Assembly (NCBI RefSeq): GCF_965363235.1
Contig: NC_134844.1
Location: 55,982,872-56,046,871 of the forward strand
Length of the DNA stretch: 64,000 bases
Direction: 5' to 3'
Source: Mytilus galloprovincialis
Lineage: Eukaryota; Mollusca; Bivalvia; Mytilida; Mytilidae
Part shown: one piece after another, positions 9,193-38,151 of the stretch
How the letters are laid out: each line of letters opens with the position of its first letter
How positions within the stretch are numbered: the first letter of the stretch is position 1
The notes under the pieces: generated by a model
Told to the model about the DNA's origin: nothing
What the model saw: the letters and a program-made list of their open reading frames with translations, nothing else
The model's database searches: none
Position numbers and translations under genes: made by a program

Positions 9193-9662
9193 TTACAACA
9201 TTCGGAAAGATGACAGAATAGCTTTAATTGGTGTCACGATGCATCCTCCAGCTGGATGAGAAGCAATTGCCATGCCTATACAACCAGTTATTCCATTTGG
9301 ACCTACAGCATAAATGCACGTTCCAGAGTCACCTAGCTGAAAAGCAATTTTGCTAAATGATAACTGATTGTAGACAGTAAACACTCTTGGACTTCTCAGC
9401 TCACCATCTGCCACAGTTTTAACTTGTTCTTTAAAATGAATAAATTCAGAAATATCATCTGATTTAGGATTACGGATTACCATTTCACTGACAGAATCAA
9501 TAAATGTTTGAAGTTCTTGTCTTCTTTCTTTTTCTATTACTATTTTATCCTGACATTGTTGCAGTCCTGAAACTGATCCACTGGATCGCATTTGCAATTC
9601 TAATATAGTTCCAACTTCTTTATAATCTAAACAACATTTATTTAGGTATTCCGATGACATTC
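9193..9662 (-). CDS. exon 13: protease Ser half and C-terminus
   Basis: The acceptor is a TAG just before 9662, after an AT-rich tract (TATCTATTTTAG). It reads G-MSSEYLNKCC... for 156 residues to TAA at 9195-9193. AFQLGDSGTCIYAV contains the catalytic Ser in GDSG, followed by GCIGMAIASHP and the C-terminal helix. Between Asp (exon 12) and Ser there is an unusually long helical or charged insert of about 100 residues (DKIVIEKERRQELQTFIDSV). With exon 12 all triad residues are present, so an active S1-type protease is expected. Confidence 0.8.
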
Positions 9663-12600
9663 CTAAAATAGATATTGGTTATTATAACATTATAAAATTA
9701 CAGACACAGCACAACGGATGAACGCACAACGCATTGACAGACGATTAACGCAAAGTGATTACAAAATCACACATAAACGCAAAGTGATAACAAAATCACA
9801 CACGAACACAAAGTGATAGCAAAATCACACATAAACGCAAAGTGATAACAAAATCACACATGAACGTAAAGTTATAACAAAATCACACTTAAATGTTTTG
9901 GTCAAGTGAGCTAAACATAAGGTCTATTACAACTAAATCTTATTGAATAATCATAAGGTTAATTTTGTCTCCCTTGAGTAGACTGTACCAAGTCAAGAAT
10001 ATGACAGTTGTCCATTCGTTTGATGTGTTTTATCATTTGTGTTTGTCATTTGATTAGGGACTTTCCGTTTTGAATTTTCCTCAGAGTTCAGCATTTTTGT
10101 GATTTTTTTTAGACACTCCATTGCCTTATAACCACCGTACGCTTAGACTAGCAAATAGGACTTGATTGAATCAAATTTAGACAGGATAGTTATTAAATGA
10201 ATAGCTTCAATCATTACATCTGATGAAAACTTTAAAATGCCAAAATTGCACCTTCTCCATTTGTAAAAAATTTAGTCCGTATCACGACAAAAACTAATTG
10301 TTTGAAGATGTAAAACATAGAAAAAATTTCAAATGTTCAGTAGTTAAACATAAGATATCTTACCCATATCCGTAATTGACCTGGCTATACTATTTTGATC
10401 AAATACCATATTTTGGGGATTGATTTTGACACAAGTTTTGTCAAGTTGAATGATTGCTGCATCAACTGTTGTACCATCACTTTCATCTGGTGGAAATGCA
10501 AAGTTTATCAGTTCACCACACGGAAGAGCATTGGTACCAGGAAGAGATCCCTGATTTATGTAGTAAACATTTATAGTATTTTCATGAATTTTCTGTCTAT
10601 TTTCTTTTGTAACTAGATATTCCTTGTCAATAATCACATGTGCACAGGTTAGGAATGCATCTTTACCAAGATATCGTACAAATCCCCCAAGTGTTCCACT
10701 TTTTCCACCTAGTCTCCCAACTTCACTTCCAATTCTTATGTCTTCCACTAACAACTCGGCATATCCTTGTAAAATGTCTGTTGGAATACCATCTATTTCG
10801 TATGGGAAGTGCGCTTCTCCAACTGGAATGTAGCCCTTTAATCGACAGTAAAGCTGAATACATGGTTCTTTAACAATAATTTGTTTTATTGGGTAACCCT
10901 GGGATTTTATAGGCGAAGGTGAGATAACACTGAGCTTCCGATGTTGTGCAAAATAGTGTTTTGCTCTAGATCCATCTATTCCAGTTACTTTAGAAACCCA
11001 TTCCGGATCTTGGTTTTGCAAACTTGTAATTTTCTCCGTTATCAGTTTCCCCTCCTGTGAGTTGCTAATTTGCTTTTCATACCTAATAGGTATTCCGTAG
11101 AAAGAGTTTGGTTCGCATTCATTTACTTGGGCACTTACTTCGACGATAATTACAACATCAGGAGAACAAAAATAAATAGAGTCTTCACCATGTCGAGCAT
11201 TCCAAAACTTGCATGCACATCTAAATCCAGGCCAAATATCACAACATTCAGGCACTGATACTTCTTTCAGAAACAATCTAGTTATTTGCCAGGCAATAGC
11301 TTTCGCACAACAACCACACTGGTTTTTGATTGCCAAATCCAGTAGCTGTTTCAATAATGTTATGTCGCTTTTAAAAGGATTCCAATATGCAAGAATATGT
11401 CGAAATAGCAACGAATCCTTAGCCTGTATTGCATCAGTTAACTCTTCTCTTAATTTGCTGGAGTTGTAATACCTGCTGTCGATCCTTCTTTGCAATAAAA
11501 GGTGGCGATGATACACACTTTCACAGTCTATTAATCTATTTGAACACTCTGAAATTGAAAAAAGAAATAAATTCGGCAATATCAATGCATATGTGTTTTG
11601 AAGAAAACAAACGTTTTCTTATCTGATCATATTTTATTTTATAACAACATACAATCTATTGTTCCTAATCTTAAAAGTTGTCTTGATTTGAATTTAAATG
11701 CGAAAATTGCCACTCATATGAAAGAATATTGTTATACCGAGAATGATTTTGTTACTTCTCTCATCCAATTTATATTATTAACAACGTGCGTATGAAATGA
11801 TGGGACTATCACAAACTAAACAAGCATATTCCTTCAAAATATATATTTTTGAATCGTTGACAAGAAAACTCAACAACTGCTTTCTGAATAACCCGCAAGT
11901 GAAGATATCAACAGTGGCATTGAAAAATATAACTCATAATATTTAAAACAATACAAGTGAAGCGAAAAAAGAAACACAACACGAACCCCTTCAAACTAAA
12001 CAAGCGACGAACTCGGTTGTATCGGAAAAACAAGCAGTTCTTCGTGTACTAATTGCACCCGTCGTCTTACTCATTTAAAGTATAGATTGGAAATAACTCG
12101 TATTCGGTGATGTCGCAACCAAAAACTAGAGGATCTAAAGATCCTGTTTCACTGACATAGGTCTTAGTATATCTATCTTCATCAATTGACATGCTCCATA
12201 TTGTGGACTATACTTTGTTTAGCCAAAAGGCGAAAAGGGTAATACAAAACCTTAATGTAAGGGCACTCACTCCCTACGAATGATTCCGGCAACATTTGAC
12301 TTATTTGTTGATTTTTTTTCCTTGCTGAAAATTAGTAAAGTTAATCACTAAAGGTACCAGTCTTGTATTACAACTCCAGTTTCCGGTGCATGTCAAAACA
12401 TGGAGGGAAACAAAATAGTCCATTTTTTTCTGAATTTTTTTCAGGACTCAATTTTTTCTGTTTGATTATAGTTTATGCTGAATTGAAATATATATATAAT
12501 TTTAAAAAAATCTTGCATCTTTTTGGGGATATCAATCTAGGAAAGTGGAAGGATATCATGTTTACTGGAAGTGGTGCGGCCTAGTAAAAACAGCAAACAG

Positions 12601-15600: not shown

Positions 15601-18600
15601 TACTAATATTTGTCTGTTTGACTTTTTTTTTTAAGACATAACGTTGTCCGTTTTTTTTCTATCTATGAGCTTGAATGTCCCTCTGGTATCCAAGTTCATT
15701 GATGTAGATGCAGTAACCTTGCTTAATACTAATACTTATTACAGTAATTGAAAACATCTTTTCTCATAAAAAAACTTAAACTTAAAGGATAGTTAAAGTC
15801 ACCTTCTCTATGAAATCTTCTTCAAAATAAAAAAAAAGAACAAGTCGTTTAGCAGTCGAGCACAGCAGTTTCCCATAAATTTTTCAATTTCAATTGCAAA
15901 ACACTTCCTCTAGGTGTAACATTTTTTTTAAAGATATAGAAAATATAGAAATCCAAACATTTGATGAAGTCACTTACAGTGAATATTTTACTTGAAACTT
16001 AAAACAAGGATACCAAATTAATGATTCGGTTGAAGGTAGTTTTCTAAGAACTTGTATTGATATCGAAACTTATTACAACTATTCATTATGACATGTTTAT
16101 AACATGAGCAACACGACGGGTGCCACATGTGGAGCAGGATCTGCTTTCCCTTCCGGAGCACCTGAGATCACCCCTAGTTTTTGGTGGAATCCTGTTGCTT
16201 ATTCTTTAGTTTTCTATGTTGTGCCATGTGTACTATTGTTTGTCTGTTTTACTTTTACATTTTTAGCCATGGCGTTGTCAGTTGATTTCGATTTATGAGT
16301 TTGACTGTCCCTCTTGTATCTTTCGTTCCTCTTTTATAAAATATTTGACAAACAAGAATTGCGACCGATTGTTACACGGTTAAACGTTGGTTTACATCAA
16401 GTTATAGTTTATATAGTAGTTCGATGCTAACACATGTCCTTAAGTTTGTGATGTCTAAAAACATAAGCCAAATTAATGCTTTGAGCCCATTTGAGTGCTG
16501 CACTAAACATGGAAATATGACTCCGCGAGCTATACATGCTATAGTATGTTCAATGTGTGTATGATTTTCTAGATTTGGAACAAGAGTGGGTTCAACATAC
16601 TAGCATTAAGGTAACGTATAATTCGAAATTTTCATGAAATCTGGGTTGTTTTCAATTAGACCGCGGATAATAATTGAACATTTGATTAAATATAAATTAT
16701 TTACCATCTTTCTCTGCTTTCACTCTCAGGTTGATACCTTTGGCAACAATGCAATCAACAAAGAAGCCATCGCTCGAAAATGTATGTTTGTATAATACGT
16801 TGTTACCTGTAAAGAATTTTAAACGACTACAAAGCTGCTATACTGAGGTATTTGCATGAATATAATATATTTACTCCGTTTCTCAACATAAACATGATAA
16901 CAGACCATGTATTTTACTTCAAAATATTTTGGGTTTATTTCATTTCAAATTGATTGATATTTTTGACTTTTTCAGTTTTGTTATTGCTCGTCATGTTGAA
17001 GGAGTTAATGTGTAAATAATGATAACAGGTAGGTTTAACTGAAACAGATATTAAAACTAAATGGCAAATTTATATAATCAGTTTAAAGCTTGGTGATATT
17101 TCATCTTATGCATATAAACAAATAAAATTATATCATCTAATTTGTTTCTTGTCATATGAAAAAATAGCAAGAAAAGGATCAATAATGAAACAACGTTATT
17201 GTATGATAATATTCATTATTTTTATCTTAACGATGATAATTTAATTGATATATCTGTATTATGTTTTAGTTGAAGTTGCTATTCAAGGTCGTACGATACC
17301 GTAGCAAGTGCAAATATTAGGCTTTGCATGAAATTGCTTAAAATATTCATACACAAATTTAATTAAATACATAAAGGTAATAAGTTAGTTTGTTTTAATT
17401 CAAACGCAATACAAAAGAAAAAGGTAAAGATGATTATAGAATTATGTAAAATCTACCATCGGGCATAAAGCTCAATGGAAATGAAGACAGGTACTATATA
17501 ATCACCAATAAAGTATAATAAAATAGATATTTAACTCAATATGTGAAGCGAGCACAGAAAGTAGAAGAACATATAGTTATAATCCAAGTATTTATTCAAT
17601 CTCTGCAAGGGAAACTATTATAAAAATAAACAATATTTTTATTAAATTACATGTTCTTATTTCAAATATATTATATATGTAGCTTGTTACCTACACCTTT
17701 GTGGTGGAATTCGTTTACAGCAATGTATTTCAAAATAAGCGTTGTATACCTTTGTTTTCCGTAATATATTCGTGTGACGAAATTAACAGTGGACATGACT
17801 TTGATCGACCTCTTCTCGTTGGTTTGTTACTGAAACTTAAAAAAAAAATTTGTTGTGTTTTTAAAATTACATAAATAAACAGATTCTTTTTAACATTTAA
17901 AACTATGTTGTTTCAGTTTAAAGTGCAGACCACTAGCAAATATAAGGTAAATCTAAATTATACAGTGTGTTGTTTAACAAAAGCTGAATTAAAATATATC
18001 GTGGAATTGCAAACAACAGTTTTGAAAGTTAAGGCACACACTTGTTTTTTTATTTTTAATTGTTAATATGATCAGAACATATTACTAGGTTGAATAATTG
18101 GATGTTGAAGCAGTATTTAGAAATTGAAGACAGAACACATAACCCATATAAACAGAATATACTGACCGACTTTAGAAACGCAACACTAGATTATTTCTTT
18201 AAATTCCAATCTTCAAAAATGCATTTTGTTTCAAACAAACTTATGAACAGAAAGTTCTTTCATAATTCAATGTTTAACAAAAAAGACAGTTCGAAAGTTA
18301 AATTGATTACGTAATTTTCAATGTTCAAATGTTGTTGTATACACTAAAACCTTGGTTTTCTCCTTACTAATGAACGCGTCACCATCAAAAGCAATGACTG
18401 TCTGTAACAAACGCAAAAATGATTGTTACCAGGCAAATGATTGTGTTCGCCGTACGAACTTTTTGAAAACAAAAGAGTTATATAAATGAAACTCGAAAAA
18501 AAATGGAAATCCTAGATAAAGAACAAAGTTAAACAAAAATAAACACTCAAAAGATTTTGAAAATCACCAAAAGGTAAAAGAGAGAGAGACGGGTGATAAC

Positions 18601-21600
18601 TAAGAGACAATCAAAATCAAAAGCAAAAAGCAAACTGACAACGACATGGGAAACAACAAAACATGACGAGAGTTTGGCCTTCATACTGAACATATCCGTC
18701 ACGTTTTGGATTCTGTTTTGCACCTGATTTTGCCGTTGTCCCACCCATTACAGTGGTTTTTTTACAATTATGCAGTTGGAACTTAAGGCTTTTAAAAATG
18801 TTTTTTCTGCAGTCGATGCTTTGGCAGTTCAGTTTATGGCATAAATCTGTACAAAATGGCATTCAGCAATTTGATTAGCAGTTGACGTTACGGCCGTAGA
18901 CCTGTCTCGCAAATGACGTTGCGTTATCAAATTCTATTAACGTTGCATCGTCAGTACATGTTGATCTGGTCATTGATGATCTCCAACAAATCTCGTTTTC
19001 CGATATCATTGTTGGAAGTACAGTAAAAAGAGTTTTTGACGTCAAATTCTCTGGTTGCAGCACGTTCACATTTTCCTGTTTGCAGTATTCTAATGGGTTG
19101 ATTAAGATTTTTATTCCTAAGTCTTGGCAATATGGAGATGCAACATTTTTTAACTGATTTAAGTGTGGCCAAGGATTGAAAGAACTGTTTCACAAAGAAA
19201 GAAAAAACTTTTATTGGTTCGTAATTTCGCTTTCTGAATTCGTGCGGTCTCAATAATCTGGTATGTTCAATCACGACAGGTAAGTCAGATATTGTTTTTT
19301 TTTTCGAAAGAGAAAGAAGTGTGATAAGCATGAATAGTAGTTGTATGATTTGGTTAAACAAATCTACAAAAATGAGTGTTGCCTGTTTAAAGTCAGTCAG
19401 TATAGAATGTAACCAAATCATTACATATAACTTTTAAAAAAAACGATGCTTGGTTTTCAGTGACTTAATAGTGGTCAACATGTAGATGTGCTTTTAATTC
19501 CACAGTCTGCATTCCCGATGGAACAGTGCTCTGCTGATGACCAACCTTCTCCTTTATATTTGTCATTTACTTCTTACAGGAGGTCACCAAGAAAAACTGC
19601 TGACATAGGGACATGTCTCGTCTTTATGTTATTCTATAGTATTAATCAAATGTTGAAATTCAAATGGCAATACTTTAACATATAAACTGTCGTCATTTTC
19701 GTGATAGGGAGTGACTGTTCACAAGGAGGCTATCAAAGTGGTGATGTTGAAATCATTAATTATTTTACAGACGCAATCACGAGTTGATTGACCATCCTAG
19801 TTTTACAGATGACGGATATGTTCAGTATGAAGGCCAAACTCTCGTCATGTTTTGTTGTTTCCCATGTCGTTGTCAGTTTGCTTTTTGCTTTTGATTTTGA
19901 TTGTCTCTTAGTTATCACCCGTCTCTCTCTCTTTTACCTTTTGGTGATTTTCAAAATCTTTTGAGTGTTTATTTTTTTTTAACTTTGTTCTTTATCTAGG
20001 ATTTCCATTTTTTTTTCGAGTTTCATTTATATAACTCTTTTGTTTTCAAAAAGTTCGTACGGCGAACACAATCATTTGCCTGGTATCATTGTACGTTTTG
20101 TATGCCCCACCTACGATAGTTGAGGGGCATTACGTTTTCTGGTCTGTGCGTCCTTCCGTCTGTTCGTCCGTCCGTCTGTTCGTCTGTCCGTCCGTTCGTC
20201 CCACTTCAGGATAAAGTTTTTGGTCAAGGTAGTTTTTGATGAAGCTGAAGTCCAATCAACTTGAAACTTAGAACACATGTTCCTTATGATATGATCTGTC
20301 TTTTTTTAAAACAAAATTAAACTTTTGACCCCATTTTCATGGTCCACTGAACATAGAAATTAAAAGTGCGAGTTTCAGGTTAAAGTTTTTGGTCAAGGTA
20401 GTTTTTGATGAAGCTGAAGTTCAATCAACTTGAAACTTAGAACACATGTTCCCTATGATATGATCTTTCTCATTTTAAAACCAAGTTAGACTTTTGACCC
20501 CATTTAAATGGTCCACTGAACATAGAAATTAAAAGTGTGAGTTTCAGGTTCAAGTTTTTGGTCAAGGTAGTTTTCAATGAAGTTAAAGTCCAATCAATTT
20601 GAAACCTAGTACACATGTTCCCTTTTGGTTGATCTTTTTACTTTAAGGCCAAATTCGATTGTTTACCCAATTTCACGGTCCATTGAACATGGAAAATAAT
20701 AATGCGAGTTTGTGGTGCTCAAACGTTATCTATGTTTATTATGGTGCTTTAATTTTTCTTATGTTCATTTATCTTTTTAACCGCATTGAAACATTTTATA
20801 TACCTTTACATCGTTTCTTGGTAAAACTGGTTTTGTAATTCAGAGTGATACTGTTAAAGGTAAGATATGAAACAATATTAATATTTCAAATTTCAAACCA
20901 TTGAGTGATGCGTACAAAACGAGTAGCCATTTTAATGACCAAATGCACAAAATAAGCATATGAAGAATATAGCGGACTTCTTATTCATTTTACCAAGTAC
21001 ATATACTAAGCTGCGTAAACTGTAATTTTATCTAGAAGAAAATGAACGCTATTCCCCTCACGAGCCTTAATATCCCGTTAATATGTCCGGTTCCTTTAAA
21101 TATAAACCAAAAGTAATGTGTATTTATTGTACGATATTTAAAGAATATGAATTAATATAATGAATTACCTGTAATAATCAACAATAGTTTCTAACCCTCT
21201 TCCTCCAATTTTTTCCAATGCCTTCACTAATTGTTTGATCGTAACTGGATCACATAACATTTCCCAATAGCCAAGTATTCTTTGTGTTTTTTCAAATATG
21301 TTATATCTTTTACCAATAACCATATTTGCGATAACAGTACTTTCTATACCCAGGTTGGAACCTAAATTAGCACCGTCAATTCCAACAGCAAACGAAACTT
21401 TCCTGAGCAAATCTGCTGGTGGCTTCTTCATTAGTATAGTTGGGGAGATATATGTATCAGTCACTGAAACATATCACTTAGATGAAATTATTGAATTACA
21501 TCCACTATTATGACTCCTGTTCATCACTTTTAGACGGTTAAATATATTCCGTACCAGTTCCTAACATTAATTCGATAATAAATTTCATCATAAACAAAAA

Positions 21601-27600: not shown

Positions 27601-30600
27601 CTGAGCTACACTAAATCCACCAAAAATCGAGTTTGATCTCAAGGGCTAAAGAAGGGTAGGTAGTTCCTGCTCTACTAATGGGACCTGTACTATTTCATAA
27701 CTTCAGGCAAATATAAGGATTTCAACAATACATGTATGTACCATTTATTGTAACAGTTAACTTGTAAGACAAGTCGGGGTAGAAGTAGGCATATTTTTGG
27801 CAGATTAGACAATATACGTTTGATGAAACGAGTAATAGTAGAGAAGGTCGGTAAAATAAATTCTTCATAGTTGCGAATTATAATTGTTGTTGATTAATTC
27901 TCTGTTAATATTTTAATCATGTTTTGTCTGTAAACAGTTTTTAGTCTTTTAAACTAAAATCACGAGCAATCACCCTCGATTAAAAATTGATCGGCAATTC
28001 ACAAAGAAAAACGTATTAATCAAATGTGTTTTGGTACAATTTTTAAGAGTATTTTTTTTATTACAGCGTCATTTATGAGTCTTTCGTAGACGGAACGCAC
28101 GTCTGGCACAAATTAAAAAAAAATGTATCCTGGTTTCTATGATAATTTATTCATTTTGGTCGATGCCACTGCTGGTGAAGTAATTCCCTAGGGTTTGCAT
28201 GTTATGCGGTATTGGATGTCTTGTTAATATTATCTGCCGTACGGTATCGTGCAGATCTTAACGTCGACTTTATTTGTTATATTGTGGCTAGCTGTTTCAT
28301 TGTCTATTATACCACAGGTTTTTTTTCTATTTATATTGATATATTGGTTATACAAATTACCTGCTGAAGAAATATTTTTTCCAGGGTATTCCGGCAATGG
28401 TTCATCCAGATCTTTACTTCCATCAAATAGCAGCAGAACAGTACCTTCTTGCAAAATGAATAGCTGATGTGTCATGTCAAAAGCTTTCTGTCCGCCAAAA
28501 TCTACCAAGTCCGATGGTGCAATCTCTAGATTATATTCTCCACGTCTTATTTCATCCAGTATACTTTTTCGTAAGTCCTCTTCTTGAAGCACATTTGACG
28601 TATTTGATAAAGCTGATGCTTTAGAGGTAAGCTCTTTCAAATACTCAGGATATGAGTTTTCTGTTTTCTTTTCTTTTTCTGCAGTATTTCCATCATTTCT
28701 ATTTAATGTTGGTGTTCTTATCAGTTCAGGTGTACTATCAAACTGAAACAAATCTTGAATGTCAAAGTTTGATTTCATATATATACTTCCATACTTCATT
28801 TGTTGTGTTATGTCTTTATCTAAGTCATTTCCTAAAGCTTCGTCAATTTCCATTTCGTCTGTTAACGTTTGTTTCAAATGGAACCATTCGTCAATCGGGA
28901 CAGCGTCTTCAAATTCAGGTAATGCAAAGGATTGTCCAACTTCAAAATCAACTAGAATAGGAATGGAAATAAAAAACAAGGATTAAATAATGTATGATAA
29001 CAGTATTTTCTTTAAGGTTTATTAAAACCCTTCTGTAGCCATTTTTGTACGAATTTTTCAAACTCTAATTTTATCAAAACTAAAGATATAATAAGTAATA
29101 GGGATAGGCCATTTAGTACATGTTCCAAGGGGAAACTTGATGCAAAGCATTATTTTTTACTGTTTCATTGCATTTGATAGAAAAAGAGGACTTTGTGGCA
29201 AATAAATCAAGATTTTTATAGAAAATCCACAGCCTTTAATACAGAGATTTTTGTTATGAAATTTGAAACATAAATTACTCACTTGATTTTCTATGATGTG
29301 CTAGTGTTTATTTTTTACAAAAAGTTCTAAGTAACCTGTAAATTCCAAAACACCTCGTGCTGAGTCACTAAAGTCGAGCGCACCCTAAAAGGTGTACTTG
29401 ATTTTGGCCATATTTATACTTGTCTTAACCAATAACTACATTTATAAACTTATTTTAAGGAAATCAATGCTAGCACTGCATGCAATAATCCTATATCTAT
29501 CAGTCATCAAATTGCCAAATATGAGAGTACAAGGATAAAGGCTGTGGATTTTCTATAAAAATCTTGATTTATTTGCCACAAAGTCCTCTTTTTCTATTAA
29601 ATGCAATGGAACAGTAAAAAATAATGTTTTGCATCAAGTTGTCCCTTGGAATATGTACCAAATGGCCTATCTCTATTATTCATTATATCTGTAGTTTTGA
29701 TACAATTGAAGTTTGAAAAGTTCGTACAAAAATGGCTACAGAAGGGTACATAAACCTTAACCCAATATCCAACGTTTTAACAAAAAAATGTCTCAAATTA
29801 ATAATTTGAAAGATATGAAATAATTTTTTTTGTTAAATTACAAGAATGACTGAAATGAATGTCATGTATGTGATGCTTACAGAACAGTCAGGAAAAAAAA
29901 GTTGTTTGTCAATGTAAAAAAAAAATAACTAATCAAAGAATTCAATTATTGAAAAATATTCACCTCGTAACCAAACAACACTGTTAATCAACTCATGAGC
30001 TACTCACATTCGTTAATTAATGTGTTTTTCGGTCACTTGTTGATATTTTTCTCTATTCAAATTCTTCGATTATTTATTCTATTATTACCCATTTCTTTCT
30101 TTTCAACTTTATTGGATGCTACCTCTTCTTTTTGTATGTTTGTCATCGCAGCTATTACTTTCCCATGAACTGTGTGGCACAGCATACCTTTAATAAACAA
30201 ATAAAAAGTAAATGTATAAAATAATAAAATAGCGGAACTTTAAAAACAATAATTCATAATTCTTAAGCTCAGAGTTCTTAAGTGTTTAAAAAAAACAAAT
30301 TAAACAGAACCAAGGTGTCAGTCATATTTGATAAGTGCTCATATATTACAACTCACCGCTGATACGAATGCCGACTAATAATAATGTCATTCTGTACAGC
30401 AGTACTTGGACAAAGTATGATTTGTTTTGTTTATTCGATATTGAATTAATTCAAAGCATTGGCAAATAGATAGTTGATTTGTGAAAGGCGTGAAAAATTA
30501 TCACAAACTATACTCATCACTGCAGACATTTTGATTCGGAGAAAATGTGTGATGATATCTTTGACTGACGAACGTGCTGACGATAGGAACGGATAAGACG

Positions 30601-33600
30601 AATGCAATTGGTGTAACTGCACAATCATATTAGAGTGATAACACATTTAATTCAAATCATTAACAACATGTTGATGTTCACTTTTAGATAATGTAATGAA
30701 CGGCCATTGGACCAAAAACAAATTCCAGATCCATAACTATCTTTTAAACCAAACTCAATAGTTATGCAAGAGCATTTACTCACATCGAGCGATTGCATAC
30801 ACATTTTCAAACCGAATACTGAACTAGGGAAAGTTTATAACTTGTATTCTAATATAATTCATATAATGTGCGTGATACACTCTTTTTCTGTATTGACAAA
30901 ATCAAATAATAAATTAAACTCATCATAGCACCATGATTGGAATTTGATATTTGCGCCAGACACGCGGTTCGTCTACAAAAAACCCATAAGTGACGCTGAT
31001 CACACATCTAAAACTATTGTATTTGAATATGTGAGAATCCTTATTTCAAGTTGTTGAACACGGGAAGGAATGGATATGTGTTTTATAGAACTATTTAAAA
31101 TTCATAGCAAATTATTAATGTTATCAACGAAAACTCTTCTGTTTCATAATAAAAAAAATCAGTTCCAGGTCTCTTTCATGTACACAAATGTATCAACATC
31201 CAACGTAAATTAAAAAATACATAAAACAAAACTCTCGACTTTATTTTGTCAAATATAAAACGCACAATACTGTTTAAAAAATGTTGTCAACCACCATCAT
31301 CGAGATGGTTGCAGGAAAACTAAAATTTAACAGTACCTCGAAATTGCAATTGAATCTCGTCATAGATTTAAATGATTATAATCACATGTCTAGTCTATTA
31401 TTATTTGATACACCTGGTGTTTCGGTTTAGGCTTTAGGCCAAGGCATTCCTTATCAGGTACCCCTAACCCGTATTTTTGTAAGTCTAGTTTTAATGATTG
31501 TATACATTGGATACTGAATAATATTACTGGGGCACGACACCTGGCGTATTCCTAGATTTTCAAAGTATGGTTTACAGTATTAACTTTGTTTTATTTAATG
31601 AATTATCTGAGTTTTGATGATGTAAGCATGTCCTTCAAGCTATTTTGCTTTTTGTAGGCTATAATGGATGGTCTCTGAAAAAGCTGTTTAGCAGTTTCGT
31701 CTTTTTCAATAATGTGCCAGTGCTTTCGTATGGTTTTGCCTAGTTGTTTAACCATGGGATAGTATTTAGATATGAAGCATAGGGGAATATTTTCCCGTGA
31801 TTTGTTTCTATATTCAGTCGGAAACCAGGTTGAAATAGAACAAAAGAATCGAAGCTCTTTGTTAGAGAAGGCGATAAATGTTTACTGTATTGATTACTAT
31901 AGTGACAAAATTTTAAAAAGTTAATAGAAACAAACAAAATTGCAATTTTCTTCTACATTACGAGGTGTTTTATTTTAAAAACACCATTTGCATAAGTTTT
32001 CAATTTATCTAGTACACAGTTAAGCAGAACAATTAGATATCAAGTCGACGACATGGGTATCTTTCAAGTTGGATGAAGAAAATGCATAACCTCCGATTTT
32101 TATGAAAAAATTACCACGGACGGAAAACATATCAATCTATTAGTTCAGTAATTTTCGTGTCTGCCCTTCCATTATGTGACTGAAGAAAAAATTCCAAAAA
32201 ATGGGTAACAATTGTATCGAAAAGAGAAAATCGAGGTCACCTTTTTATGTTAGGGCGTGTTTGAGTTGAGTATTTTGTCTTGATATCGTACAAAATAAGA
32301 ATATTTCATACATCGTCTCGCTTCAGATTTTATCATTTTTATATATTAAAGCTACAGGTTGACTTTATAACACAAAAAAATCACAGTACTAAAAGATGAA
32401 ATATATGGGTCAAGTGAAATACCTATCTAATGAGTCATAAAAACAGAGAAGGTGTGTTCGAGTAGCTATTTTTTTTACTGAAAGTACTTGACGACAGTCT
32501 TTCAAGTTGGATGATGAAAATGCATATCTTCGAAAAATTCCAATTTTTTGTGTGTGATTACTATGGTTTATAGTCTTCATACACTAAAAAAATCTAGTCT
32601 GCCCTTCCACGAAATATTTAATTAGAATTTTTTTAAATGTTTATGAATTTTCGAAAATTCCACCTGACAACCGATCAGACAATAGTTTTCAGTTGAATCA
32701 ATGCAGACAAGATTATTAACTGATGCTCATTATCTAGTTGATACATTTGCCTTTTAAAATACAACTGACATATAAGGATCGTAATGGTGCAATGTGGATA
32801 AATTTATCGGTTTCCAAGAGCAATATTGGTAGCGCGTCATCCCTACAATGGCTTCCATTTCTACGATTGTGAAAATGAACTGGCGTAATGGGGAGATAAT
32901 TTTGACGAAGTAGACTCCTGACTGTATTTTAACATGTGATTATAATCATTTAAATCTATGACGATATTCAATCGATCAAACATTCAGATTTATGAGTTTG
33001 ACTGTCCCTTTCGTATCTTTCGTCCCTCTTTTTTAAGCCTCTGCATGGTTCTTTGGATTGGTTCAGGACACGTCTTATATTTAAAAATAGGGATGTACAA
33101 AATCAATGCTGCTGTTAGTGATTTTACAAAATCAAAGATTTCACAAATTCACTGCAACATATATTTAGAGCAAGTTATACTTCGTCCACCAACATAAGGT
33201 ACATGTCCAATAAACGGATATGTGTACCATAAGATACTAAAATTTGCAAATCATTAATTCTTATCTTCAATAATTTGTATCAACCTTTTCGTATTTGAAT
33301 CATTTTCTTGTCTTTTAGATGAATACCATTTTGCCCAAAGTATATCTGTAACCCATTTGTTGATATCCATTTATCTGGTACTTCGTCTCCAGTTAAAACA
33401 CATGCCAGACTTGTCTTCCCTGCATTACAAGGACCTCCAAGATAAACACGATTTTCGTAGGAATCGTAAAAGCCATGTTCCAATAGTTCATAAAATTCTC
33501 TTGAGTCCAATAACGAAGGAGCTGAAAGAGTCGTGTAATTATTTCTTAACCATGTGACACACCATGGTTTGCGTCTATATTGCGTCATATATTAAAACTA

Positions 33601-36600
33601 TTGCCAAGTTTACTTGTTCAATTCAGCGATTAATATTGATGCTTATACGAGGCTGCATTTATATTAATAATAATAATTACTACAAAACGACATACTGTCG
33701 CAATAAAATTTAGGAAAAAAAACAGATATCACTTTCATCAGATATCACTTTCAAAAACTTTACAAACTCATATGTGGGCAATTTACAGCAACAACAAAAA
33801 TTACATTAATAAAGCTTTTGAAGTTTTGTATAACTTGCAAATAAGAAATATAAATGATAAGAGTGAAAAATTGCTTGCATGAGAATTTCATTCTTTTGCA
33901 AAACAATGCAAACGTCTCAATGAGATACTGCAAATTGTCGTAACGACATATCTTGTTGATTTTGTTATTTTCGAGATAAAGCTGGTAGCAATCAAAGGGA
34001 TTGATTATCAACTACAAAATAAATGTCACTTTATAATGACTGTTACAACTTACTTTTTCCAAATCTACCTTTCTCCATCCAGACTGGTTTCTGACTTTTC
34101 TTTTTCAACAGACTGGCAAATAAATGTTTTAGCTGATCAGCCTCAGTTAACAGGTTTTCTAGTTGTTCAACCAATGGAACACATTTCTGTCTTGTGCTTG
34201 TTAGAATTCTATCAAGCATTCTTGCTACATCTTTAAAAACATTGAAATAGTACATCGTTTCTGTATCAGTCAGTTCCTTGTTTCTTCTGCATTGGAGTTC
34301 CTGTTTAGTTTTCTTTATTGCTTCTAAAACTTTTGCATCTATTTCTTTTTTCTGAAGCTGGAGCAAAGCAGATGATAGAAGCATTGTGTCAAAATCTGTG
34401 TACCCATTCTCCTGACTTTCGAGAAACTTGAGATATTCTGTTGCATTAAAATATCTAACTGAATGGTCCGACAAAACAATCCAGTTGAAAATAACTACAG
34501 GTGGGACAATTTGATAAAGTAATTCTCGAAGAATTGTTGATAAGGTATCTTCGAAAGCATAGCCAATCAGTGTGTATCTTGATTCGGGAATTTGCAGATG
34601 TTCTAGGTCATGCCCAGGTGGAAGATACCAATATCGCGGGATAGATTCTATTAAAAAGTGAGATTTTTTTTTAATAAAGTGAAATAATAATACACATGGT
34701 ATACTTAATGGTAGACGGGAATATTAATAGCGTAACCGAAAGCTATTATATGGAGTTGTCTTATGGTTTTATTTTGTTGAATATTTTGTTACAGGAAGAG
34801 GTTAATGATTATTTAATGATAACAAAGAACTCTAGAATGTTTCAATTTATCCTCAGATCTAATATTTAACGATTTGGATTTCTACAATTTAGCTGTTCTA
34901 ATGGCGCATTTGTATTTAAGACACTATTGTACTTCCTTAAATATACTTGCCTTCTATAGGATTTGCATGTTCATAGTTTTATCAACTAAAGAAGGAAATG
35001 CGAACTTTTGCACTGAATCGAATTTAACACTCGTGACTGAACACCACATACCTTTTAACTATAGTAACTGAACAATAATAGTCCTTGACATAAAATCTTT
35101 TTAACAGAAAACTAGAATAACACTTACCATTATTTTTATTATAATTTTACTTTAAAAGATAAAACAATCTGTATATAAATTAGACCTTTGGTTTTCCAGT
35201 TGGAATTGTTTTACACTAGTAATTTGTTTAGGCCCCTTATAGATAGCTGGTAGGTATGAGCCAATGCTACATGTTGTAGACCGTATATTGACCTATACGT
35301 ATTTAGTTCTATTGAAGAATTTTTACTTTTAAATATAGCTTATATCAGTATCAATACGGTAATTTTCCGGTTATGGATTTAGATATTTCGGTTTCAAACT
35401 TGTGGCTCTATGCAAAATTAACGGACAAAAGAGATGAATCCGCTTTGTTCACTATGGTCAATTTCCATTTTTTTGTTTTGGGTGAAGTATTTCTTCCGGT
35501 TTCTTCATACTTCTAAAACCAATTGTCACAGATAGACGAGTGATGAGTTAGAAGGACTCTGTACTTATAAAACTTTGACTAATACCTTACACAATTAACA
35601 ATTTAATCTAGTACAAATTTAATGTTCAAATTAAACAATTTATTCTGTTGCACTAGTTAACTGAACTGCTGTAGAAAAATACACTTCCTGTCATCAAAAC
35701 TGGCCCAACATTGCGATTGCAAGTGCCAACAAAATAAGTTATCATGATATATGGTAAATACAAATCATGCACTCTTTTTTTACATGTTTGCGCTCAGTGT
35801 TCCCGAATTAGAAAGCTGTGTCACAAATATTGGGAAATGTTAACTGTTTGTTCAACGAACTTGCTTTTTAGGAATTCCGTATAACTGACAATTATTTGCA
35901 TACAAATACTGATCCAGATACTTATCTACGAGCAATAAACTAAAGTCACATTGCTCATACTGGCTTTTGCTAACAGTTCCCATTGACAAAATATTCATAC
36001 CTGGGTTATTTCTAAAGGTTCCGAATTCTTGTTCCTTCGCTGCTATATATGTAAGGCCTTCTTTAAACCATTCGAATGTTCGTTCGTCCATACAACACGT
36101 TTTATAGTATTCTAACTTGGCCACGATACTGTCAAGTGGTGCTTTCATCTCAAGTTCCAAATCTTTTGCTATTTGTATAAGAACTGAGAAAATTTTTCCC
36201 ATTTCTGTATCTGTCAAACCTGCATTTCCTCTATATATAATTTTATCGCGTTCTGTCAGAATCCATTTTATATCAAAAGTTTCAAAACTGATAAATTTAT
36301 TTATCATGAGCAATCTTATCAAATATAAACTGAAATGCTTGTATCCATGATGACGGCATTGTCCTATGATATTTTTAATAGTCAATGGTAGTTCATCAAA
36401 AAATTGCGATGTCATTATTTCCCTACACAAGTATTCAGGCGGTAGCCGTGAAGCCATACATTTACGGACTTCATCAGTAAGTCCGACTTGAATCGCATAT
36501 ATAACTCTCATGTAGTTCGTAATTTCGGGCGGTAACTGAAACTCTTCTCGTCCATACATACGTGGATAATATCTTGGTCCTACAAATTGGGAAATATTTA

Positions 36601-38151
36601 AGAAAGAAAAAATGATAGCAATCGCGTTTTCATGATCTTAGCGAAAAAAATGTAATAATAAATATTTAATGCTTTTTTTTAGTAATTTCATAGGGTTGTA
36701 AAAGCGTTGACCGTGCGCACATTTTAAAAATAAAGCGCTTCCGCGTTTCATACAAAATACGGTCATCGATTTTACACTCAAATGAATTTACAAAAAGAAG
36801 CATTCAATATTTATAATTACATTTTTAGCTAAGATCATGAAAACACGATTGCTATCATTTTTTTTCTTTTGTTTAACTGTGCACTTTATTGTAGAAGCAC
36901 GTGTCAACACGAATATTACAATTCATTTTGAAATGAAGTTGATTAAGGAATAACGCGAGATTGCAGCTAGCGAATCAGAATAACCTATTATATAATGAAA
37001 CATGCATGTAATGTAATTATAATAAAATAAAGATTAGTGTAGGTGTTTAAAACATAAAGGTAAACAAAATAAAGGTGTCAATTTGAATAAATGGTTCAAC
37101 CTTTCGTATTTTTTGCTCTTAGACATTAAATACTGGTATCAATATAATCTTTTCGTATCTTGCAAAGTTTTAGATAGAGGCTAAATGTAACAAAATTTTA
37201 CTATGGAAAAAAACCAGTTATATATATATATATATAGATAGATACAGATCAAACATTTCACGAGTTTAAAATAGTTACCGGAAACTGTTATAGTAAATAA
37301 AAAAATATTTTAAATGTCTCAGTTTTTTAACATCTGCACTCTTCTTTCCATTTACAAGCCAATCAGTTATTGAACCTCACTGTCTTTTTAAAGACAAAAT
37401 TTTGACCTTGAAGTTTGTGTTTCATTCTTGTAAAACTTAACTTATTCTTCGTTTTTTTCTCCTTTTTTCGTGTTTGGTTGAATGGAAAAAACGTTTACAG
37501 ACTACTTTAAACCCATGTGGTGGCCAGATGGCCCGGATCATAGACTTTTTATTTTGTTAAGCTTCCAGTTTACTAACCTTTTGTTTCTTTTAAATTCATT
37601 TCCAGTACATGCAAATGATTTCTGTACCTCGAGCGCATCTTGTAATCGACACAACATGTTTCAATATATCTCGTGACACTTTTATTGCCTGTATTGTTCA
37701 TACAGAAATGATCAAATGTTATTGCTATATCATTAAATATTGAAAATAGTTCCCTAACTTCTTCATTGGTGAAGGAAGTTTTACCAGAATGCAAAATTAA
37801 ATTATACTTTTGGTATATCAGTTCAACGCCATCCTCGATTGTAAGAACTTTCGGATATGAGTTGGAAGACAACCTTCTTGATGGCGGCTGAACTAATTGT
37901 AAATTTCTAATCAGCAAGTATAGTAAGCGCAGATCTAATTTCTCAAAACAGTTTTGTTCAATACATTCACGTATAAATACAGCTTCTTCATAATTAAAAA
38001 AAACACTGTGTATACGTTTAAGTTGAAGCTTATGGCCTAAACTTATCTGATTTTTTAACAGCTCTTCCAGAAGATTTCGGTTTTCATATTGAGCAACAAA
38101 ACACAGTCTGACATAGTTTGTCATATAGGTATTACGGTCTTTTCTCTCCAT
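9193..38151 (-). CDS. HEPN(x3)-Roc-COR-death-trypsin-like multidomain protein, 13 exons
   Basis: Exons in order (minus strand) are 38151-37578, 36579-35857, 34647-34054, 33521-33285, 28951-28361, 26842-26742, 24250-22976, 22140-22110, 21463-21169, 17829-17750, 16806-16705, 11548-10364 and 9662-9193. All junctions are GT..AG and keep one frame: 6,258 nt, about 2,085 residues. Approximate domains are HEPN-like 1-190, 200-430 and 435-630; Roc 640-940 (P-loop about 660-667, DFGG 860-863, THRD 934-937); COR 941-1365; death 1376-1473; unassigned 1474-1800; protease 1800-2085 (His1838, Asp1897, Ser2042). No signal peptide or membrane span is visible, so it is probably cytosolic. Roc-COR with a death domain is known in animals (DAPK-like ROCO proteins), and DZIP3-like HEPN domains are common in molluscs. 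The role in immunity or cell death is inferred. The weakest points are the donor at 22976, the short exons 8, 10 and 11, and the true N-terminus. Confidence 0.8.
9663..10363 (-). other. last intron, with 30-bp tandem repeat and mussel repeat fragment
   Basis: About five tandem units of CGCAAAGTGATAACAAAATC lie at 9748-9893. A fragment of the mussel repeat (AATATGACAGTTGTCCATTC; compare 57905-58095) lies at about 9980-10135. Confidence 0.6.
9748..9893. repeat. tandem repeat, about 30-bp unit, five copies
   Basis: The unit CAAAGTGATAACAAAATCACACATAAACG recurs with few changes. GTGAT and ATCAC within the unit are complementary, so each unit can fold into a small hairpin. It sits in the last intron of the large gene. 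Confidence 0.75.
10364..11548 (-). CDS. exon 12: unassigned region plus protease His and Asp
   Basis: The acceptor is CTTTTTTCAATTTCAG and the donor ATGG|GTAAGA. It gives 395 residues. The first about 265 are unassigned: a Cys-rich helical part (NQCGCCAKAIAW, PECCDIWPGFRCACKFW) and a strand-rich part (DVVIIVEVSAQVNE). The last 130 begin a trypsin-like fold: GTLGGFVRY, FLTCAHVIID with the catalytic His, and GTTVDAAIIQLD with the catalytic Asp. The ORF has an apparent ATG upstream of the acceptor, but that lies in intron. Confidence 0.75.
11549..13010 (-). other. intron 11 (part), no repeat recognised
   Basis: This is the proximal part of a 5.2-kb intron. It is AT-rich. I see no exon with the right phase in it. 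Confidence 0.4.
13735..14240 (+). repeat. mussel GTCTCATTGGCA repeat, copy 2 (nested)
   Basis: This is collinear with the copy at 4195-4718, from AGTACTCTCAGATCTG to GTCTCATTGGCAATCATACC. It lies inside the TTAC-flanked element, so it inserted after that element or is carried by it. Confidence 0.65.
14466..14907. repeat. nested inverted repeat with 72-bp arms
   Basis: The arms are 14466-14539 and 14836-14907. They share CAACGGCTGTTTTGCCAGAC and ATCAAAAAGTAGATATTT in inverted order. It is a short foldback or MITE within the larger element, with AT-rich sequence between the arms. Confidence 0.6.
15459..16704 (-). other. intron 11 (remainder) with a mussel repeat at 16110-16335
   Basis: The repeat starts CCACATGTGGAGCAGGATCT and ends TTTCGTTCCTCTTTT; a related copy is at 63413-63625 and 3'-end pieces are at 15595-15700 and 32990-33035. 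It produces a hydrophobic ORF (16104-16298) that I take to be spurious. The rest of the intron shows nothing. Confidence 0.55.
16705..16806 (-). CDS. exon 11: short segment of unassigned region
   Basis: This 102-nt exon has acceptor TTCTTTACAG and donor GATG|GTAAAT. It reads GNNVLYKHTFSSDGFFVDC, then IVAKGINLRVKAEKD. One of three frames is open and it is the one that fits exons 10 and 12. The alternation of strands (VLYKHTF, FFVDCIVAKG, INLRVKAE) suggests the start of a small beta-rich domain that continues into exon 12. Confidence 0.6.
16807..17749 (-). other. intron 10, nothing recognised
   Basis: AT-rich sequence between two short exons. I see no repeat family or extra exon. Confidence 0.4.
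17750..17829 (-). CDS. exon 10: basic linker after the death domain
   Basis: This 80-nt exon has acceptor TTTTTAAGTTTCAG and donor AAAG|GTATAC. It reads SNKPTRRGRSKSCP, then LLISSHEYITENK. Phases fit exactly on both sides (2 in, 1 out). The first half is strongly basic and looks disordered. There is no domain assignment. Confidence 0.6.
18427..20085. mobile_element. DNA transposon with about 270-bp terminal inverted repeats
   Basis: The ends TACCAGGCAAATGATTGTG (18427) and its complement (to 20085) begin inverted repeats that extend to about 18697 and back to about 19811. They share GGTGATAACTAAGAGACAAT and AACATGACGAGAGTTTGGCC. A minus-strand ORF inside (18951-19421, 156 residues) has no motif I recognise. 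ATTGT flanks the left end and appears two bases beyond the right end, a possible target duplication. It lies in intron 9. The inner right part resembles 63180-63300. Confidence 0.65.
20095..20735 (+). repeat. mussel repeat with GTCCGTC microsatellite, copy 2
   Basis: It starts TATGCCCCACCTACGATAG, then runs through a (GTCC/GTCT)n tract at 20148-20200, then three degenerate units of about 180 bp with TTTTGGTCAAGGTAGTTTT and CCAATCAACTTGAAAC. It is the reverse orientation of the copy at 6190-6790. It abuts the right end of the TIR element. Confidence 0.7.
20736..21168 (-). other. intron 9 (3' donor side), nothing recognised
   Basis: Sequence adjoining the donor of the death-domain exon. No repeat or exon seen. 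Confidence 0.4.
21169..21463 (-). CDS. exon 9: death domain
   Basis: The acceptor is GATATGTTTCAG and the donor TACAG|GTAATT (phase 2 out). The 98 residues form a six-helix death-fold pattern: ADLLRKVSFAVG, NLGSNLGIESTVIANMV, QRILGYWEMLCD, TIKQLVKALEKIG and GLETIVDYY. It has the LG.NLGI start of helix 2 and the conserved Trp in helix 4 or so (GYWEM). Death domains form homotypic complexes with adaptors. In animal ROCO proteins the domain follows COR, as here. Confidence 0.8.
21464..22109 (-). other. intron 8, nothing recognised
   Basis: AT-rich; no repeat family or further exon found. Confidence 0.4.
22110..22140 (-). CDS. exon 8: 31-nt micro-exon linking COR and death domain
   Basis: The acceptor TTTTTTAATTTTTAG and the consensus donor GTAAGT frame a 31-nt exon, NQKNAQKIFK plus one base. 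It converts phase 0 after COR into the phase 1 needed by the death-domain exon, making the codon A|TG. No other frame stays open. It was chosen because it fits, so it is less sure than the long exons. Confidence 0.55.
22141..22975 (-). other. intron 7 with a mussel repeat at 22845-22935
   Basis: The repeat carries ACTGATGAGTCTTATGTAGA and ATAATCCTGGTACCTTTGAT. Relatives lie at 28065-28155 and, inverted, at 30925-31010. The remainder shows no feature. Confidence 0.55.
22976..24250 (-). CDS. exon 7: COR domain
   Basis: The acceptor is GATTATTTTTTACAG. The exon encodes 425 residues. It opens with the last Roc helix (TNYEIRRTELVAQLTKTFKE), goes through FFIDARKKDD, and into a typical COR: VPLEKQI, then QHAIGKLIFFDQDELSQFII, PSVLVNALRSFV, and PEYYIIPCMIQTRL. 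It closes with MWECQHGQFHEVDYLRYW, a Cys/His segment often seen at the end of mollusc COR regions. Two donors are possible: TTT|GTAGAG (22976, phase 0) and GA|GTAAAT (22971, phase 2). Only the first lets exons 8 and 9 read through. COR normally mediates dimerisation of ROCO proteins. Confidence 0.8.
24251..25522 (-). other. intron 6 (part), decayed repeats only
   Basis: A minus-oriented fragment of the mussel repeat lies near 24600-24760 (GGCCTTCAACAAAGAGCAAA). Nothing else is recognisable. Confidence 0.4.
25523..26159. mobile_element. MITE-like element with TGGTAGGGRTGAGC ends
   Basis: TGGTAGGGATGAGCCGCTG at 25523 is mirrored by CAGCTGCTCACCCCTACCA ending at 26159. Near-terminal blocks around ATATCGATAGGTTGATA and TATATCAATAGG are also inverted. 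It is 637 bp with no ORF of note. The target duplication is unclear. It lies in intron 6. Confidence 0.6.
26175..26627. repeat. unclassified repeat fragment
   Basis: It has a C run at about 26176-26187, then GC-richer sequence with GTTCTCTCCGAGTACTTCGG, a phrase I recognise from dispersed repeats in marine invertebrates. The two overlapping ORFs here are not exon-like. Class unknown. Confidence 0.4.
26742..26842 (-). CDS. exon 6: Roc GTPase G4 motif
   Basis: This is a short exon of 101 nt with acceptor TTTATTTTTCAG and donor AAG|GTATAA. It translates to ILLHWVNSVSTYC, then IQRIQFVATHRDRYK. The WVNS helix followed by a strand ending VATHRD is the standard Roc G4 (T/NKxD variant THRD). Both phases fit the neighbours (phase 1 in, phase 0 out), and the motif itself is independent proof that the exon belongs here. 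Confidence 0.8.
26843..28360 (-). other. intron 5 with a short mussel repeat at 28065-28155
   Basis: The repeat has TTATGAGTCTTTCGTAGACG and relates to the copy at 22845-22935. Otherwise AT-rich with nothing recognised. Confidence 0.45.
28361..28951 (-). CDS. exon 5: Roc GTPase, acidic insert and G3 motif
   Basis: The acceptor is CCTATTCTAG and the donor GCAG|GTAATT. It gives 197 residues. The first about 130 are acidic and low in hydrophobics (for example LTDEMEIDEALGNDLDKDI), an insert between P-loop and G3. The last 60 contain LEIAPSDLVDFGGQKAFD (G3, DxGG) and GTVLLLFDGSKDL, the strand and helix that follow G3 in Roc domains. The ORF runs past the donor into the intron, but only the GTAATT donor keeps phase with exon 6. 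Confidence 0.8.
29012..29760. mobile_element. foldback element with about 240-bp inverted arms
   Basis: It starts TTAAGGTTTATTAAAACCC and ends TAAACCTTAA. The left arm (29012-29256) and right arm (29527-29760) share AAATCAAGATTTTTATAGAA and AATGGCTACAGAAGGG in inverted order. There is no ORF. It is in intron 4 of the large gene and would form a long hairpin in the pre-mRNA. Confidence 0.75.
29761..31789 (-). other. intron 4 (part); one inverted mussel repeat
   Basis: An inverted copy of the ATGAGTCTTATGTAGACGAA repeat is at about 30925-31010. I see no exon of the right phase between the P-loop and G3 exons, nor is one needed. Confidence 0.4.
31790..32935 (-). repeat. 1.1-kb dispersed repeat, inverted relative to 43770-44865
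   Basis: Matching landmarks in opposite orientation are GTCGACGACATGGGTATCTTT, TTTTATGTTAGGGCGTGTTT, TTCCACGAAATATTTAAT and GGCGTAATGGGGAGATAAT. The copy at 43770-44865 lies inside the CACTA-like element, so this may be an internal part of the same family. No clean ORF. Confidence 0.65.
33285..33521 (-). CDS. exon 4: Roc GTPase P-loop
   Basis: The acceptor is CGACTCTTTCAG and the donor AAAAG|GTTGAT, phase 1 at both ends. Its 79 residues contain NRVYLGGPCNAGKTSL, a clear Walker A (GxxxxGKT) on a beta strand, followed by CVLTGDE. This is the G1 motif of the Roc domain. The preceding text FYELLEHGFYDSYENR is the usual lead-in of ROCO P-loops. It joins exon 5 as QIRK-V-DFEVGQ. Confidence 0.85.
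33522..34053 (-). other. intron 3, nothing recognised
   Basis: AT-rich sequence between the third HEPN-like exon and the P-loop exon. Confidence 0.4.
34054..34647 (-). CDS. exon 3: third HEPN-like domain
   Basis: The acceptor is CTTTTTAATAG and the donor the consensus GTAAGT. The exon is symmetrical (phase 1 both ends) and gives 198 residues. It opens SIPRYWYLPPGHD, which echoes PRYYPRMYG of exon 2. The last helices read KTKQELQCRRNKELTDTET and YYFNVFKDVARMLDRI, which align with exon 2 at LTDTE and with the final helix of exons 1 and 2. The HEPN R/H pair is not evident. It has no ATG before the homologous part, consistent with an internal exon. Confidence 0.65.
34648..35856 (-). other. intron 2 with a mussel repeat fragment at 35180-35310
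   Basis: The fragment carries TTGGAATTGTTTTACACTAG and GTAGACCGTATATTGACC (3' portion of the GTCTCATTGGCA family). Nothing else recognised. Confidence 0.45.
35857..36579 (-). CDS. exon 2: second HEPN-like domain
   Basis: The acceptor is CCCAATTTGTAG and the donor CAAGTTC|GTTGAA. The phase is 1 at both ends, so the exon is symmetrical. It gives 241 residues and starts PRYYPRMYGREE. The core repeats the pattern of exon 1: NYMRVIYAIQVGL, then FSLYLIRLLMINK, then TERDKIIYRGNAGLTDTEMG and IFSVLIQIAKDLEL. The H of the HEPN motif is lost. The donor is GTTGAA, weak but of the same kind as the GTTGAT used by exon 4; it is the only donor that keeps phase. Confidence 0.65.
36601..36870. mobile_element. 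short foldback element 20 bp from the exon 2 acceptor
   Basis: The arms of about 80 bp (36601-36685 and 36785-36870) share ATGATAGCAATCGCGTTTTC and CATGATCTTAGC, inverted. The centre carries AAAGCGCTTCCGCGTTTC. Read in the gene's direction, the end of the element contributes the pyrimidine-rich TCATTTTTTCTTTCTT just upstream of the exon 2 acceptor. Confidence 0.7.
36871..37577 (-). other. intron 1 (part), (TA)n microsatellite
   Basis: A short TA run is at 37218-37236. Nothing else is recognisable. Confidence 0.4.
37578..38151 (-). CDS. exon 1: start and first HEPN-like domain (DZIP3-like)
   Basis: The ATG at 38151-38149 is the first after an in-frame TAG seven codons upstream. The exon gives 191 residues and ends in AAAG|GTTAGT (phase 1). 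Residues of about 70-160 match the DZIP3-like HEPN layout: FEKLDLRLLYLLIRNL, then a PP turn, then LTIEDGVELIYQKY and NLILHSG, then a final helix ELFSIFNDIAI. HEPN domains are all-helical and in some families are RNA-binding or RNase modules with an R-N-x3-H motif. Here the motif is only partly kept (K-Y-N-L-I-L-H), so catalysis is doubtful. An acceptor-like CAG four bases before the ATG leaves room for a 5' UTR intron. Confidence 0.7.

Follow-up and report, generated by a model that had tools for sequence, protein, structure and literature searches.

Introduction

Roc-COR proteins are GTP-controlled dimers, and Death domains assemble partners. According to the accessible excerpts of PMC8195603, bacterial Roc-COR proteins carry at least 24 kinds of C-terminal domains, trypsin and caspase among them, and bivalve expansions mix Death domains, HEPN domains and NTPases. 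The accessible parts of three further papers describe expanded HEPN_DZIP3 and NACHT proteins in the pearl oyster (PMC9646362), Roc-COR in TLR and MyD88-like proteins of Aplysia (PMC9334734), and trypsin-like peptidases in bacterial conflict systems (PMC7159879).

Here we analyze a locus of Mytilus galloprovincialis in which three HEPN-like exons, a Roc-COR unit, a Death exon and a protease cassette follow one another. The original prediction had read it as a single gene, with an order not known to it from any described protein. The combination HEPN-Roc-COR-Death-protease was not found described in the literature searched, which included few subscription journals, and to that extent the claim is not contradicted; bacterial Roc-COR proteins with a C-terminal trypsin are described (PMC8195603, excerpts). 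We consider it an even chance that the HEPN-like/Roc/COR/Death gene and the protease are made as one fused protein.

Results

Organization of the locus

The window, a stretch of 64,000 nucleotides (C7:55982872-56046871), lies in a genome of 1.385 Gb in 331 contigs (G000). Its minus-strand exons are open from 38151 to 9193, and the motifs GGPCNAGKTS (P-loop), DFGGQ, ATHRD, TCAHV, VDAAI and GDSG occur on this strand in the order in which they had been predicted (there as DFGG and VATHRD). The domain order on the minus strand is three HEPN-like exons, Roc exons, a COR exon, a Death exon and the protease cassette. That all exons lie on one strand and in order favors a fusion.

Eleven exons are supported, and the splice phases match from exon 1 through the start of exon 7. 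Coding-score thresholds for exon candidates were lowered, as stricter ones missed known exons. The proposal of thirteen exons in one frame encoding about 2,085 residues was not borne out: the nearest model, with twelve exons and 2,075 residues, was built to resemble it and needs a repeat piece (19184-18918), whose use there is a guess. A joined model keeps the frame open for 1,986 residues, but uses a poor acceptor for exon 9.

The predicted kinds of domain (HEPN-like, Roc-COR, Death and trypsin-like) proved right in kind; the Pfam HEPN_DZIP3 match is confined to exon 1. Pfam searches returned COR-A (2.6e-7 and 31.1 bits on the joined protein, cut-off 35.3; 6.1e-8 on the open frame), Roc (3.2e-4 and 21.4 bits on the joined protein, cut-off 27), HEPN_DZIP3 (9.7e-4) and Death (0.015 for the single sequence), all four below the curated cut-offs, and the protease gave no Pfam match. 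No protein kinase domain was found among the hmmscan matches up to E 5 on the joined pieces. Structure modeling, which had been suggested as a check, gave two poor models (pLDDT 39 and 44), and this disfavors a fusion.

Outside the gene, positions 51995-52303 on the minus strand hold a fragment with a DDE_Tnp_4 transposase match (Pfam 5.1e-18), which we take to be Harbinger-like.

HEPN-like exons

The N-terminal part is encoded by three exons:

Positions 37578 to 38151, minus strand: exon 1, start Met and HEPN-like domain 1 (HEPN_DZIP3); donor AAG/gttagt, phase 1.
Positions 36001 to 36579, minus strand: exon 2, HEPN-like domain 2, resembling exons 1 and 3; phase 1 to 1.
Positions 34054 to 34647, minus strand: exon 3, HEPN-like domain 3, the most divergent; phase 1 to 1.

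In pairwise blastp without composition correction, exon 1 matched exon 2 (E 1e-4) and exon 2 matched exon 3 (E 3e-6), and exons 1 and 3 did not match each other. The codon score of exon 1 is negative. By hhalign, a profile of the three exons matched eight HEPN_DZIP3 proteins encoded in this genome (E 1.4e-5), with a score of 41.7; the highest score among 20 column shuffles was 12.5. When the exons were compared singly with these proteins by hhalign, exon 1 matched (1.3e-5) and exons 2 (0.03) and 3 (0.7) did not, so that the latter two are tied to HEPN_DZIP3 only via their mutual similarity.

HEPN domains had been expected possibly to cut RNA. By eye, in the pairwise alignment, none of the three exons combines R and H where the Rx4-6H motif is expected: exon 1 has N and H without R, exon 2 has R without H, and exon 3 has neither, while regular-expression matches to the motif in exons 1 and 2 fall outside this place. 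The domains are therefore not classed as RNases, and they most likely serve as a scaffold rather than as a nuclease.

Of 13 matches to exon 2 elsewhere in the genome, one precedes a COR exon (C9:31.23 Mb) by 7.3 kb on its strand, which favors a fusion; another (C9:31297246) precedes that COR exon by about 67 kb. No HEPN_DZIP3 was found within 60 kb upstream of a listed COR exon at any of the 74 places compared (of 150 listed).

Roc, COR and Death exons

The central part of the locus comprises the following exons:

Positions 33285 to 33521, minus strand: exon 4, Roc P-loop GGPCNAGKTS, read directly; phase 1 to 1.
Positions 28361 to 28951, minus strand: exon 5, Roc insertion and DFGGQ (G3); kept beside three COR paralogues (L078, L081, L084).
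Positions 26742 to 26842, minus strand: exon 6, Roc VATHRD (G4); kept beside seven COR paralogues.
Positions 22990 to 24250, minus strand: exon 7, COR-A/COR-B; end uncertain.
Positions 21169 to 21463, minus strand: exon 8, Death domain; donor CAG/gtaatt, phase 2; acceptor uncertain, with two weak candidates (21463 and 21425).

Exons 4 to 6 contain all the Roc motifs (P-loop, DxxG and [TN][KH]xD), and COR directly follows Roc. The COR exon has 99 matches at no fewer than 98 loci, the window included, a lower bound since 98 of 464 candidates were scored; the best paralogue is 39% identical. Of 29 paralogous COR exons, 28 end in phase 0 before GT, and the remaining one was missed by the search pattern. 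Where the paralogues have GT the window reads CAG/GCACGT, a possible GC donor. Exon 7 may accordingly end at 22990, in phase 0 like the paralogues (by eye), or at 22984, in phase 1.

A Death-like exon is recognizable in five of the 29 COR paralogues, within the approximately 1.5 kb of downstream sequence covered, and matches to these five exons arise by construction. A four-exon Death profile that includes the window copy (9-21% identical to the others) matched 18 PDB entries, with CRADD as the best match (5.5e-4) and PIDD, RIPK1, Ankyrin-3, Fas and FADD among the others. The first 15 are death-domain proteins, and one of the 18 is not. Two paralogue Death exons taken alone had no Pfam match at 0.01.

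Genome-wide, exon 8 has matches at five other places (E 9e-4 to 8e-3), each of them preceded in the same orientation by a listed COR exon, at distances of 4.4-11.6 kb. The COR-Death pairing is a family trait, which favors a fusion.

Protease cassette

Three exons form the 3' part of the locus:

Positions 16705 to 16806, minus strand: exon 9, short conserved exon (DGFFVDCIV) preceding the protease; phase 1 to 1.
Positions 10364 to 11548, minus strand: exon 10 (E11 in some labels), ankyrin-like N part, EIDGIPTD..GTLGG, catalytic TCAHV and VDAAI.
Positions 9193 to 9662, minus strand: exon 11 (E12 in some labels), catalytic GDSG and stop.

Exon 9 is probably real, judging by its relatives. One was found at L120, upstream of protease locus L093 (E 0.004), and with this copy as query L094, L118, L108 and L117 were recovered, as was L102 weakly (E 0.23, internal stop). 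These relatives precede a protease exon at six loci, and exon 9 is for this reason placed on the protease side. All five readable copies have phase 1 acceptors and support the acceptor at 16806; an alternative at 16772, in frame but a poor site, was rejected.

Exon 10 has 28 matches in the genome, grouped as the window copy and 24 other loci. Among the aligned relatives, 23 of 24 retain the catalytic His, and all 23 that cover the Asp site retain the Asp; GTLGG is kept in 22 of 24 and PTD in only 8 of 24. Relatives of exon 11 occur at five loci (L093, L094, L099, L100 and L107), with GDSG readable in three. This conservation of catalytic residues in paralogues favors a fusion. TCAHV, VDAAI and GDSG correspond in order to a His-Asp-Ser triad, assigned by motif rather than by structure. 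The N part of exon 10 is probably a degenerate ankyrin region, because the relative L117 still matches ankyrin (4.4e-5, below cut-off). The intron separating exons 10 and 11 contains a 29-nt tandem repeat (9747-9891), and a broken protease copy with internal stops lies at C12:64337255-64338718, about 43 kb from its closest relative, L093.

The window protease gave no useful match in Pfam, NCBIfam, PHROGs, PADLOC, PDB sequences, plasmids or, by tblastn, genome contigs. The motif DGIPTD..GTLG pointed to a bacterial peptidase family, and a DNA scan for it yielded 53 bacterial loci; going by their motifs, 23 of these qualify as peptidases. A profile of the mussel protease family (20 of 25 aligned rows) matched the bacterial profile with an hhalign probability of 94.5 (E 8e-8) and a score of 65.9, whereas 30 shuffles reached no more than 21.0 and the reversed control 12.8; the 44 matched columns precede the barrel and include the motif used to select the bacterial loci. 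The barrel itself is linked to the bacterial peptidases by motif order rather than by score. Without the family profile, which makes the relationship convincing, the window protease on its own scored weakly, with 11.1 bits against a profile of 10 of the 53 loci (best of 1000 shuffles, 9.7) and 12.7 against a profile of 23 of the 53 (8.4 in 5000 shuffles); from GTLG onward it scored 5.5 against the latter profile, within the shuffles (7.6). A bacterial member matches Trypsin_2 (1.9e-6) and NAL1_N (6e-4, below its cut-off). AlphaFold2 with exon 10 and 14 bacterial rows reached a pLDDT of 44, the Ser half being outside the model. On the strength of profile and motif order, the cassette is classed as a divergent Trypsin_2/NAL1-like peptidase.

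Link between the Death and protease exons

Exon 8 has a phase 2 donor, whereas exon 9, at acceptor 16806, enters in phase 1, so that the two are out of frame. Direct splicing of the two is therefore impossible: either one or more exons that connect them are missing, or the gene terminates with the Death domain or beyond it. The mismatch, with phase 1 seen in five relatives of exon 9, disfavors a fusion and supports two adjacent genes: a HEPN-Roc-COR-Death gene ending at or soon after the Death domain, and a separate ankyrin-like/protease gene with one or more small, undetected or non-coding start exons. We regard this arrangement as a serious possibility that falls short of an even chance. It is also consistent with the immediate stop met on reading through past exon 8, with an AATAAA about 37 nt beyond it, which further disfavors a fusion; signals of this kind are too common here (about 1.5 per kb) to be informative. 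However, exon 8 is closed by a strong donor (8 of 9 positions agree with the consensus), which argues against two genes. In the paralogues L076 and L087 a V codon follows the Death frame where similarity ends, hence a GT at that point; the donor of exon 8 and these GTs favor a fusion.

A linking exon was sought between exons 8 and 9. The best candidate, at 17829-17750, gives 2,024 open residues but has a low score, and its weakness disfavors a fusion. Conversely, the sequence between the Death and protease exons offers only short and weak candidates for the start exon of a separate protease gene, none of them convincing, and exon 10 has its first Met at residue 381, with none in the first 380 residues; both points favor a fusion, and the lack of better start exons weighs against two genes. 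As a terminal exon after the Death domain, 19184-18877 had the top score. It was rejected as part of an interspersed repeat, in which 150 of 554 candidates were scored, all 150 matched and nearly all listed copies carry stops, and the two-gene arrangement is thereby left with a repeat as its best terminal exon. The repeat reading frame lies within a mobile element:

Positions 18424 to 20088, no strand assigned: inverted-repeat mobile element in the interval from exon 8 to exon 9, with the repeat ORF 19184-18877 inside; its arms span about 280 bp and are 99-100% complementary.

The distance between exons 8 and 9 is 4.36 kb, of which 1.67 kb is the inserted element, and so short a gap favors a fusion. 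At positions 20205-20711 a 169-nt unit is repeated in tandem, in three copies, of which the second and third are 93% and 64% identical to the first.

The mobile-element copies between the Death exon and the cassette, together with the broken protease copy at C12:64.337 Mb, would fit a cassette orphaned by shuffling or transposition, open yet lacking a promoter or first exon and expressed with neither neighbor. We consider this improbable, given that the two large protease exons have uninterrupted reading frames of 395 and about 156 codons, catalytic motifs and matching splice phases.

Other protease loci bear on both a fusion and two genes. A listed COR exon lies upstream within 150 kb on the same strand at one of the 24 other loci, at 80 kb, a comparison made with an incomplete COR list (98 of 464 candidates scored). 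As a rule the protease occurs apart from COR; the 23 loci without a listed COR exon disfavor a fusion, and the occurrence of the cassette at 24 other loci, none less than 80 kb from a listed upstream COR, supports two genes. Support for the single-gene claim is uneven along the locus: COR-Death is well supported by paralogues and HEPN-COR by one further locus, but the link to the protease by none nearby.

The two protease relatives with readable upstream DNA (of the 24) both have a Met-starting RCCxC-type exon 12-13 kb upstream:

G000:C5:97544148-97545116 and L121:1035-1703: RCCxC Met-starting module, 12-13 kb upstream of two protease loci.

A different Met exon at both examined relatives disfavors a fusion and supports a separate protease gene. 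Genome-wide, the C5 form of the module has 116 matches; Pfam gives none for it. At one of 31 places compared the module lies within 100 kb of a protease locus, so that it may be a neighbor rather than a partner of the protease. In the window no RCCxC start exon was significant (best E 0.09, from a different reading frame within the COR exon); its absence there favors a fusion and argues against two genes.

Discussion

If the parts are fused, the locus would encode an intracellular Roco-type sensor of the mussel, with a presumed immune role, that combines three HEPN-like domains with a Roc GTPase, a COR and a Death domain and has acquired, by capture, a serine protease cassette of NAL1/bacterial type at its C-terminus. 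From a single transcript, the HEPN-like and Roc-COR parts would sense and dimerize under GTP control, and the Death domain would gather copies or partners. The clustered protease, in the same chain or recruited, might then cut a substrate as effector, as in proteolytic cell-death and immune circuits. Only tentatively, and with more doubt than confidence, do we propose that a built-in serine protease of NAL1/bacterial type is gated by a Death domain together with a Roc-COR dimer that GTP switches. Such a caspase-independent, one-polypeptide "sensor-to-protease", acquired via a captured shuffling cassette, would be an animal counterpart of bacterial Roc-COR-trypsin defense proteins.

Even if the two parts are not fused, the genome has at least 98 COR loci, several with a nearby Death exon, and about 25 loci of a protease family related to bacterial and plant NAL1-like peptidases, whose window copy is missed by Pfam.

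Comparison with known systems

The locus resembles the bivalve HEPN_DZIP3/NACHT/Death expansions in that HEPN_DZIP3-like domains, Death and an NTPase occur in expanded families (PMC9646362, PMC8195603, both in excerpts). The Rx4-6H motif, kept in 194 of 202 pearl oyster proteins (PMC9646362, accessible part), is absent from the HEPN-like domains described here. Unlike in these expansions, the mussel NTPase is Roc-COR.

PIDD1/RAIDD (CRADD) are the best PDB matches of the mussel Death family profile, a comparison that covers the Death domain only. DAP kinase is compared here on the basis of its well-known domain composition. As in DAP kinase and animal Roco proteins (named in the accessible text of PMC8195603), Roc-COR is followed by Death. 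Unlike in DAP kinase, no kinase was found in the mussel locus, the N-terminus is HEPN-like and the C-terminus may be a protease.

The protease shares the order DGxPTD..GTLG..HV..DAA..GDSG and a profile match with plant NAL1 (maize, PMC12915138, excerpt) and the bacterial NAL1_N/Trypsin_2 peptidases (L009-L061). In contrast to these, it has an ankyrin-like N part and 24 further loci in one genome.

The bacterial AP-GTPase (Roc-COR) conflict proteins, as far as the accessible text of PMC8195603 describes them, share the Roc-COR core and the trypsin-like effector in a C-terminal variable position. They have N-terminal LRRs, whereas the mussel locus, in an animal, has HEPN-like repeats and Death, and an effector in the same protein is here a candidate only. 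If fused, the product would represent an animal Roco protein that carries a protease effector of its own, and would link bacterial Roc-COR-trypsin systems to animal Death-domain signaling.
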